Assembly: GCA_900314745.1 (NCBI GenBank)
Contig: OMWK01000001.1
Span: 1-64,000, forward strand
Direction of reading: 5' to 3'
Length of the DNA stretch: 64,000 nucleotides
DNA from: an uncultured Eubacteriales bacterium
GTDB lineage: Bacteria; Bacillota; Clostridia; Saccharofermentanales; Saccharofermentanaceae
Of this stretch, positions 11,262 through 48,257 are shown in pieces. A program made the position numbers and the translations under genes. The notes beneath the pieces are model-generated. The model worked only from the letters and a program-made list of their open reading frames with translations, searched no databases and was not told the DNA's origin. Positions within the stretch are counted from its first letter, which is position 1, and every line of letters begins with the position of its first letter.

Positions 11262-14992
<3,731 letters not shown>

Positions 14993-45550: not shown

Positions 45551-46534
45551 TTAATATTCAATGTAGTTGGCGTCCCACGTAAGTCCGCCTCCGAAGCTTG
45601 CGAGAACGAGCTTCATACCCTTCTTCAATCTGCCGTCCTTCTTCATGGTGGACAGCAATGAAGGAATCGATGCGCTCGAAGTGTTGCCCGTCTCCTGTAA
45701 AGTCATCGGGAACTTCTCTATATCTATATTCAATTTCTTTGCCGTAGCTTCGATGATACGCGCGTTAGCCTGATGAAGGATGAAGTAATCTATCTCATCG
45801 AGGCTGAAGTTATACTTGGCTGCAAGATCCTTAATAAGCTTCGGTACCTCAGTGATAGCGAATCTGAATACGTCTCTTCCTGCCATATAGAAATATGTGG
45901 ACTGCTCGAAGCCCTCTTCATCATATCTTTGGGGCTGCTTTCTGTTCTCACATCTTAAGCAGTCTCCTCTGTTTCCTGAAGATCTCATAATAAACTCGTT
46001 CTTCTTGCCTTCTTCGGCTCTTAAGACTGCTGCACCTGCACCGTCACCGAAGAGTATACACGTTCCCCTGTCGTTCCAGTCAACGAAGTTCGAGAGTGTC
46101 TCCGTTCCTACGACAAGAGCGAGCTTAACATTTCCTGACTCGATAAAGCCCTGTACGGTATTGAATGCGGCGATCCATCCGGGACACGCTGAATTGACAT
46201 CAAAGCATCCGACATTCTCGGAACACCCGAGCGCTTTCTGAACGCAGACAGCCATAGACGGAAACAGAAGATCCGGCGTGGTCGATGCCGCTACGATAAG
46301 TTCGATATCCTTAGGATCGATACCGGCATCTTCGACAGCTGCCTTTGCAGCCTTTATGGCCATTGTTGATGACTTGTCTTCGATACCGTCGGCGATATGT
46401 CTTCTCTTGATACCCGTTCTCTCGGTGATCCACTCATCATTAGTCTCCACCATCTTCGACAGATCGTCATTGCTGAGGACCTTCGGCGGCAGATATGAAC
46501 CTAATCCTATGATCTTTCCGGTAATTTGAGCCAT
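45551..46534 (-). CDS. fabH: 3-oxoacyl-ACP synthase III
   Basis: 327 residues from the ATG at 46534 (GAAGGA, 8 nt ahead); a longer in-frame start at 46582 would lie in the promoter. The Cys-His-Asn triad is in DVNSACPGW, FILHQANARI and ETGNTSSASIP. It condenses acyl-CoA with malonyl-ACP to begin each chain. First gene of the fab operon. The gap to fabK is only 27 bp, so acpP, often found here, is absent. Confidence 0.95.
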   Translation of the reverse strand: MAQITGKIIGLGSYLPPKVLSNDDLSKMVETNDEWITERTGIKRRHIADGIEDKSSTMAIKAAKAAVEDAGIDPKDIELIVAASTTPDLLFPSMAVCVQKALGCSENVGCFDVNSACPGWIAAFNTVQGFIESGNVKLALVVGTETLSNFVDWNDRGTCILFGDGAGAAVLRAEEGKKNEFIMRSSGNRGDCLRCENRKQPQRYDEEGFEQSTYFYMAGRDVFRFAITEVPKLIKDLAAKYNFSLDEIDYFILHQANARIIEATAKKLNIDIEKFPMTLQETGNTSSASIPSLLSTMKKDGRLKKGMKLVLASFGGGLTWDANYIEY

Positions 46535-46559
46535 TAATACAATCCTTCTTTGATAATTC

Positions 46560-46601
46560 CTTTGATTATCAAAGTATTGCACACTAAAATAGCTTAGTCA
46601 A
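46560..46601 (-). promoter_or_regulatory. fab operon promoter with FabT-like operator
   Basis: On the minus strand TTGACT (46596-46601) and AATACT (46573-46578) are 17 bp apart. The dyad CTTTGAT-A-ATCAAAG (46560-46574) overlaps the -10 and start region. It matches the FabT box known from lactic acid bacteria (TTTGATTATCAAA core). Another half-site, CTTTGATAA, lies at 46548-46556. FabT is a MarR-type repressor using acyl-ACP as co-repressor; no fabT gene is in the window. Confidence 0.7.
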
Positions 46602-46686: not shown

Positions 46687-46876
46687 TGCACCATTTTCCC
46701 GATTCTTCGATTTTGGTGCACAAAAATGGGGAAAAATATGCACCAAAATGAGAAAAACTCGCTTTTGGTGCAGAGAAACAGTGATATTTGTGCACCAAAT
46801 TCTTGAATTTGAAGATTTGGTGCATTTTTAAGTCGGATTTTGTGCACCAAATCGCTGATTTCTCAATTTTGGTGCA
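46687..46876. repeat. Four tandem 34-nt hairpins with an exact 52-bp period
   Basis: Each unit has arms TGCACCAAA...TTTGGTGCA, a 14-nt loop of different sequence, and a linker of exactly 18 nt. Units: 46687-46720, 46739-46772, 46791-46824 and 46843-46876. The arms are nearly identical in all four (the first left arm reads TGCACCATTT), while loops and linkers are diverged. Half-sites therefore alternate in orientation with 28/24-bp centre spacing. Since 52 is not a multiple of 3, the array is not coding. It lies between the end of the DUF4173 gene and the fab promoter. No known element name fits. Confidence 0.85.
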
Positions 46877-46892
46877 CAAACCGACCCGGTGA

Positions 46893-48143
46893 TCAGATAA
46901 CAAGAGCCATTATGCTGGAGATTATGCTCATAAGAGCGAATGAGACTGTCGTAAAGTAGATCCACGGGCGGGACATATCCTTACGTTTGAATATTGAGGC
47001 GATGACCATGACTGCTCCGGCTGCAAATATCAGCGTTCCCCAAATCGCGAGAAGTCTTTTGGGGGTATAGCCGAATCTTGAATAGTAGAGTGCGAGCTTC
47101 GAGAATGAGATGACCGCGAATACTACGCTCTCGCACATAAGAGCGGTTATCATGCCATTCGATATCTTACGTCCTATGGAATCCCGCTTCGTAAGATACG
47201 ATACGACAAAATATACCAGCATGTTAATTGCCATAATTCCGGTAAGCTCGAAGAATCCCTGTCTCGCATATTCTGCCGCCGTGAATTCCTCGGGAAGAAT
47301 TCCGGCAAAAGCGCTGAACAGATAACTTCCTTCAAATACGAAGAATATGATGTACAGAAGGACAAATGCTCCGGTTATCAATGACGCTACAATCGGAGAG
47401 AGCTTGTGGCATTTCTGTCTCCAGGCTACAAGCTTCCCGAAGGTTTCTCTCTCCTTCTCCCCGGTACTTCCGGCGCTCTGCGATATCATTCCATAGATAT
47501 ATAAAGAAGCGGGAACTGCCAGAACAAAGAAGTTGAAATTCTCAAAAAACCAGAATGCATCTATAGACTGCAGCACCTTTGATACCGCTATGTCAAAGTC
47601 ACTGTTGATTCCGCTAAGAAGAGCAACTGCGACAATAAATACAGGGATCATGAATAACACACTCAGCACTCCGGCTGCAAAGGATGATGCTTTCATCTCC
47701 CCATTTTTACCTTTACGAATTGCCGCTAAATCTTTGAAAATATTCCCAAATCCCGAGAACGCCTTGAGCGCTCCCGCATTGAACAGATCTGCGGCTATGA
47801 AGCTTCCTGTACGTCCTTCGTACAATATTCCGCAGCTTACGACCGTCACATACAGCGCACAAAGATGAAGAGCGAGCATCGAGACCGGTTCGGATATTCC
47901 GGTTACGGAAGTCAATGCCACTATACACATGACTATATACCAGAAATATGACACAGAAGCAGGCTTCCTGCCGTGCCCTCTTACGATGAGTTCATGAAGC
48001 ACTATGAAGGCCATCGTGAACAGAACTCTTTTGATAACGGAATTCTCTCCGGAAAAATCCAGCAGAAAATACTTCAAATAGGCAAAAGCTATCGGATACG
48101 CCAGGAGTACCCCGGCGATTCGTGATGTCTTTACGGTGTCCAT
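46893..48143 (-). CDS. DUF4173-like multi-pass membrane protein
   Basis: 416 residues from the ATG at 48143 (AGAGGTAA ahead); an upstream in-frame codon at 48188 lacks a site. About ten to twelve membrane segments. The C-terminal YYSRFGYTPKRLLAIWGTLI is characteristic of the DUF4153/DUF4173 family of bacterial inner-membrane proteins, whose function is unknown. Followed by the hairpin array, with no clear terminator. Confidence 0.75.
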   Translation of the reverse strand: MDTVKTSRIAGVLLAYPIAFAYLKYFLLDFSGENSVIKRVLFTMAFIVLHELIVRGHGRKPASVSYFWYIVMCIVALTSVTGISEPVSMLALHLCALYVTVVSCGILYEGRTGSFIAADLFNAGALKAFSGFGNIFKDLAAIRKGKNGEMKASSFAAGVLSVLFMIPVFIVAVALLSGINSDFDIAVSKVLQSIDAFWFFENFNFFVLAVPASLYIYGMISQSAGSTGEKERETFGKLVAWRQKCHKLSPIVASLITGAFVLLYIIFFVFEGSYLFSAFAGILPEEFTAAEYARQGFFELTGIMAINMLVYFVVSYLTKRDSIGRKISNGMITALMCESVVFAVISFSKLALYYSRFGYTPKRLLAIWGTLIFAAGAVMVIASIFKRKDMSRPWIYFTTVSFALMSIISSIMALVI

Positions 48144-48257
48144 TGTGATTACCTCTTTATCCCTTAGGTTTATGAGGATACTATACACCGGTGCATAGCG
48201 ATTTGCAATACTTTTTTATTGTTTTTCAATAATTATTATCTGAAGAACAATCTTACA

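Follow-up and report, generated by a model that had tools for sequence, protein, structure and literature searches.

The closest described counterparts of the array reported here are the REP/REPIN-RAYT systems, which, according to two papers (PMC3116915, PMC8266576), consist of inverted repeats scattered through intergenic DNA and lying near an enzyme gene, with each enzyme paired with a repeat type and with tandem higher-order arrays among the repeats. The enzyme is a Y1 (HUH) transposase (TnpA-REP), and the REP repeats are single-stranded DNA hairpins. Two further points of comparison are nucleases, namely I-Bth0305I, an EDxHD/Vsr-like homing endonuclease, and TnsA. Repeated protein sites placed in phase with the helix are also known from plasmid iterons and phased operator arrays.

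We analyzed a palindrome array in a 64,000-nucleotide stretch of DNA (the window) from an uncultured Eubacteriales bacterium, together with related arrays in other genomes. These arrays share with REP/REPIN-RAYT a scattered intergenic distribution of inverted repeats, a position near an enzyme gene, and the pairing of a repeated word with an enzyme. They differ in that the enzyme is a PD-(D/E)XK-type nuclease, that the half-sites stand at a whole-turn pitch of duplex DNA, and that copies are few. The Y1 transposase profile PF01797 has no match in the genome of the window (control matches were obtained in 5 of 14 genomes), and the GTAG/CGTC tag of REPs is absent from the four window palindromes and their linkers. 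The window array works like REP/RAYT in its population logic and, with no Y1 transposase and no tag, stands outside the RAYT group. The linked nuclease is predicted to share its C-terminal fold and catalytic acids with I-Bth0305I and TnsA; unlike these, its family consists of free-standing multicopy chromosomal genes with tandem arrays, with no intron or Tn7 partner noticed, and, set against a homing endonuclease element, the family gene adjoins its own array. Unlike plasmid iterons and phased operators, the arrays are made of alternating inverted words and are chromosomal, dispersed, and tied to a nuclease gene. We consider it reasonably probable that the window array is a dispersed, now orphan copy of a small PD-(D/E)XK nuclease recognition cassette.

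Structure and setting of the window array

The array spans positions 46687 to 46876 by our own analysis and consists of four palindromes of 34 bp each, to which no strand is assigned, at 46687-46720, 46739-46772, 46791-46824, and 46843-46876. Their starts are spaced at exactly 52, 52, and 52 bp, which confirms the tandem arrangement with an exact 52-bp period reported in an earlier note on this DNA. Arms are 9 nt and loops 16 nt, and the palindromes are separated by 18-nt linkers (46721-46738, 46773-46790, and 46825-46842), the second of which is near-identical to linker 2 of another array in the same genome (G000:C5:158448). The fixed linker length given in the earlier note therefore stands, but its 14-nt loops are obtained only when a tenth A-T pair is counted. 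The word TGCACCAAA is perfect in seven of the eight half-sites; half-site 1, the left arm of the first palindrome, reads TGCACCATT, and with a right arm of TTTGGTGCA this palindrome has two mismatches, while the 9-nt arms of the other three are perfect.

Both flanking genes were recognized by eye and lie on the minus strand. A membrane-protein ORF (46893-48188) has its stop 13-17 bp from the array, and the fabH ORF (45551-46582) has a probable ATG near 46534, about 150 bp from the start of the array, so that the setting before the fab promoter and after a membrane-protein gene is as previously described. At both outer ends of the array there is no T-run after the hairpin, as an intrinsic terminator would have. 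Just upstream of fabH is a separate palindrome, CTTTGATTATCAAAG (46560-46574), which is kept there in many genus genomes and may resemble a FabT-type operator. Elsewhere in the window, a 21-bp tandem repeat of 2.5 copies (11277-11328) is probably coding.

Related arrays in the genome and the genus

Using the window word as a spaced pattern with up to three mismatches, we found 17 palindromes at five loci in the 2.28-Mb genome of the window (G000), and none with a reversed-pattern control, so that the array is no product of chance. Four of these loci are arrays of four palindromes, one array including a step of 53 bp, and the fifth is a lone palindrome. Arms are almost invariant among these arrays, and loops and linkers differ. 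Same-rank linkers of different arrays resemble each other, and the arrays align mutually at about 67-78%, so these cassettes probably share ancestry. A covariance model of two palindromes (E <= 0.01) was then applied to 59 genus genomes, and arrays of the window layout occur in at least 27 of them among the matches listed. The search for further copies, which the earlier note had set as its test, thus succeeded both within the genome and across the genus. A local duplication product as the origin of the array is disfavoured by the five scattered loci in G000.

The genus arrays have a common layout with a pitch of 50-54 bp and arm words that differ between species and arrays (TTTTACACCAAA, TTATCCCAAA, CCTGTACTAAA, GTGCTCCAAA, CATAACAAA, and more), sometimes with several words per genome. 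When 60 distinct 52-bp units drawn from several genomes are compared, A/T blocks recur five times per 52 bp, near unit positions 8, 17, 27, 38, and 49, and position 17, at the loop centre, is A/T in all 60. The loops, earlier described as free, are therefore constrained in composition; the accompanying view that selection does not act on coding we judge to be right. Arrays of two different words adjoin each other at L026 (G069) and L039/L040 (G061/G042), at L026 in an unbroken 51-52-bp register, which suggests word replacement within one locus. By title and abstract, the open-licence literature yielded papers on REP/RAYT, homing, and defence and no description of such arrays; they apparently form a large class without earlier description, although one may exist elsewhere.

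A nuclease family beside the arrays

An all-against-all comparison of the ORFs surrounding arrays identified a recurrent uncharacterised protein family beside arrays or in array loci of seven genomes; larger or equal clusters (ABC transporters, secreted proteins, regulators) were set aside as generic. The family protein is about 265 aa long, with a helical N-terminus and a Vsr/TnsA-like PD-(D/E)XK nuclease C-terminus. Its profile matches 58 of 59 genus genomes (E <= 1e-10, with C-terminus-only matches included) at 1 to 11 matches per genome, and named hosts include Saccharofermentans, Lachnospiraceae, Butyrivibrio, Eubacterium, Treponema, and Fibrobacter. No credible relative was found in Pfam or NCBIfam for three family members or among PDB sequences for one. 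The AlphaFold2 model (pLDDT 95.6) has a long helical N-terminus, which matches unrelated coiled coils, and a C-terminal nuclease. Foldseek returned nothing at E <= 0.001 for this model; a second structural alignment gave the I-Bth0305I catalytic domain (3r3p; Z 8.7, rmsd 2.6, 89 aa), TnsA (1f1z; Z 8.3, rmsd 3.3, 114 aa), Bax1 (6p4w; Z 7.4), 4qbn (Z 7.0), and Vsr (1cw0; Z 6.8), scores that are each near the aligner's stated background, with several independent PD-(D/E)XK entries falling on the same residues. Residues E163 and D193 are present in 78 of 78 family proteins, and E208 and H209 in 77 of 78; from their position we regard these four as putative catalytic residues. The model thus predicts a PD-(D/E)XK fold of the Vsr/EDxHD/TnsA-like kind for the linked protein.

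Divergent relatives with only the C-terminal nuclease in common are encoded at G000:C10:138916, C5:211950, and C14:9941 (L273, L279, L282), and other inverted repeats lie upstream of L273. The phage search gave two records, one of which, an unannotated 4.2-kb 'Bacteriophage sp.' entry, matches over the full length at 32%, and the plasmid search gave eight records that match the C-terminus only; with results this sparse, no carrier element was found for the family. The PADLOC candidate PDC-S68 matches the family C-terminus at E 1e-25 (three members searched), and, as in PDC-S68, the same nuclease domain is part of AAA/RecD-like helicase genes that plasmids of Rhizobium, Vibrio, and other bacteria carry (H3-H10). 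This likeness to PDC-S68 and to the C-termini of the plasmid helicases favors a defence or decoy role, with the nuclease attacking invading DNA and the arrays storing, inhibiting, or licensing it. We think such a role improbable, given a multicopy family with private words and arrays at unrelated housekeeping loci.

Arrays lie mainly upstream of the family genes. An array score of at least 4 was reached upstream in 64 of 91 genus family-gene flanks (7 downstream) and in 48 of 80 flanks from named genomes (11 downstream), and in no shuffle of either set. A stricter detector, run on 168 flank sets, found 72 arrays upstream and 11 downstream, against none in 168 shuffles, with about half of the flank sets below its threshold. 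Within the same loci, an array stands upstream of 31 of 74 family genes versus 5 of 196 other genes, and four of these five (L214, L215, L229, L245) belong to loci whose family gene has a downstream array. By eye, about a dozen of 27 upstream regions (including L100, L101, L108, L114, L115, and L124) have a GAGAC[CT]AGTCTCA palindrome between array and gene, often accompanied by another AGTCTCA; this is possibly the site of a separate regulator.

Helical pitch and the form of the nucleic acid

Beyond the window class, pitches change in whole turns, at about 41, 52, 63, 74, 84, 95, and 106 bp; the 32 arrays outside the 50-53 class fall near 41-45, 62-64, 72-75, 84, 93-95, and 104 bp. The best common pitch unit is 10.53 bp (mean cosine 0.86; equalled by 0 of 5000 uniform nulls, with a null maximum of 0.62), a value obtained from 76 of 83 gene-linked arrays after removal of those with the same word plus pitch, some of which, coming from two collections, may be near-duplicates of each other, the single 106-bp array being left out, L183 being scored at 104 bp though a 52-bp array, and the doubtful values of L173 and L221 (41 and 45 bp) being kept here and in the protein-tree analysis. 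Pitch classes follow protein clades, with 18 changes on the protein tree versus a shuffled mean of 31 (0/200), so that pitch steps recur; sister proteins have pitches of 84 versus 95 bp and 64 versus 74 bp. Apart from protein contacts along one face of duplex DNA, little would readily account for a whole-turn pitch. The earlier remark that 52 bp is about five turns is borne out by these related arrays with pitches differing by whole turns, and regularly spaced protein sites on one helix face are the better of the two ideas then offered.

The other idea, that a transcript of the array forms a series of hairpins or switches conformation, draws on the very stable folding of the window array (z about -9 on both strands, with no dinucleotide shuffle as good). 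Arm mismatches, however, are 47 G.T, 41 A.C, and 47 others, with no G-U bias and with both kinds inside 12 arrays, and the pitch follows DNA helical turns; in Rfam, no match near a gathering score was obtained for the window array. A stem within the loops was considered and rejected: against shuffled loops it gave a Stouffer score of -5.4, but half-swapped loops folded as well in 130 of 300 cases. A structured RNA, for which covariation, wobble pairing, or a known family would be expected, is thus very improbable as the basis of the array, and the lack of wobble bias together with the helical pitch speaks for duplex DNA rather than a folded single strand.

Private words

Among 50 dispersed arrays, 28 match a gene-linked word of their own genome, against a mean of 2.3 and a maximum of 17 in 5000 random genome pairings; arrays within one genome are not independent in this test, they were detected by a model tuned to YYAAA arms, and the dispersed ones come from the matches listed, which are part of all arrays. 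The match is present in only 8 of the 18 genomes with both linked and dispersed arrays. Those lacking it in the permutation test include G000, G045, and G071, although in G071 a looser detector did find a matching word at L095. Similar proteins weakly tend to have similar words (Spearman 0.10; 0/2000). Genes and arrays taken together show each gene/array set to have its private words, which the linked and dispersed arrays of one genome often share.

The window genome has an enzyme-adjacent copy for another word and none for the window word. An intact family gene on its contig C15 carries a TATATTCCA array upstream, and three further arrays of this word (TATRTTCCA), at about 52-bp pitch, are dispersed at C25, C5, and C19; for a second intact gene (C5, word TTGTACTCT), one more palindrome was found, standing singly. 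Because neither G000 nor G045 yielded a nuclease gene linked to TGCACCAAA, the link of the window word to a nuclease rests on G043, where a family gene has TTGCACCAAA upstream. The nearest gene-linked form of the window word seen, TTGCACCA, is also in G043, and the linked protein is 43-44% identical to both intact G000 proteins.

Some arrays, in G071 and at L034, are near-identical tandem copies, as would be expected if neutral tandem duplication had acted locally, with template switching between the inverted arms homogenising the copies. Such an origin is barely credible for the arrays given their quantised pitch and the recurrence of one word at unlinked loci, where it matches the nuclease-gene word of the same genome.

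Turnover and position of the arrays

At the window locus, G045 has the same array at 95% identity, G050 has a different TTATCCC array, G004 has similar flanks without an array, and the array is absent in G054, G073, G016, and G001. Where G000 has its rpmF-der array, G045 has a short spacer, and one G045 array is missing in G000. These alignments show whole cassettes to have been gained or lost between close species. We infer mobility rather than observe it, because the compared loci have ragged boundaries with no target-site duplication or clean insertion boundary.

The upstream position of arrays at family genes, the suitability of phased dyads for cooperative binding, and the retention of arms while loops drift would all accord with operator arrays, that is, with immobile host regulatory sites at which a protein of nuclease fold would bind, both at its own promoter and across a small regulon. 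We regard this as unlikely. Near-invariant putative catalytic residues are unexpected in a mere repressor, and fabH lacks the array in G054, G073, G016, and G001. In raw counts, moreover, of 48 dispersed arrays only 5 are bounded on both sides by gene 5' ends, with 16 between two 3' ends and 27 mixed, where the arrays scored were those flanked on each side by an ORF of 100 aa no more than 700 bp away.

A proposed nuclease recognition cassette and its significance

Under the favored reading of the window array as an orphan nuclease recognition cassette, we infer binding, cleavage, autoregulation, copying, and mobility. Dimers or oligomers of the nuclease would bind the inverted half-sites in duplex form, with every site on the same face of the helix and with help from the phased A/T blocks. 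Binding to the upstream array may regulate the nuclease gene, and the cassette would serve as a substrate for copying or gene conversion into new intergenic sites in a REP/RAYT-like or homing-like cycle. The G000 gene for the TGCACCAAA word would have been lost or never linked, leaving five loci without a gene.

A broader reading, which we put forward tentatively, is that a fast-diversifying nuclease family, each member reading a private word of about 9 bp on multi-palindrome cassettes of whole-turn pitch (4 to 10 turns), is a further enzyme-plus-repeat parasite or domesticated drive, whose cassettes spread in the intergenic DNA of gut Clostridia, Spirochaetota, and Fibrobacterota and leave orphan arrays when the gene is lost. 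If this is true, enzyme and repeats would here form a system distinct from transposases, CRISPR, and restriction-modification. A single genus would then supply dozens of natural nuclease/word pairs as direct material on how nuclease specificity changes, and the arrays would bear on the persistence of repeats in compact genomes and on the reading of helical-turn pitch. Such a system would also offer an explanation, open to test, for much of the intergenic palindromic DNA of gut bacteria that is so far unexplained.
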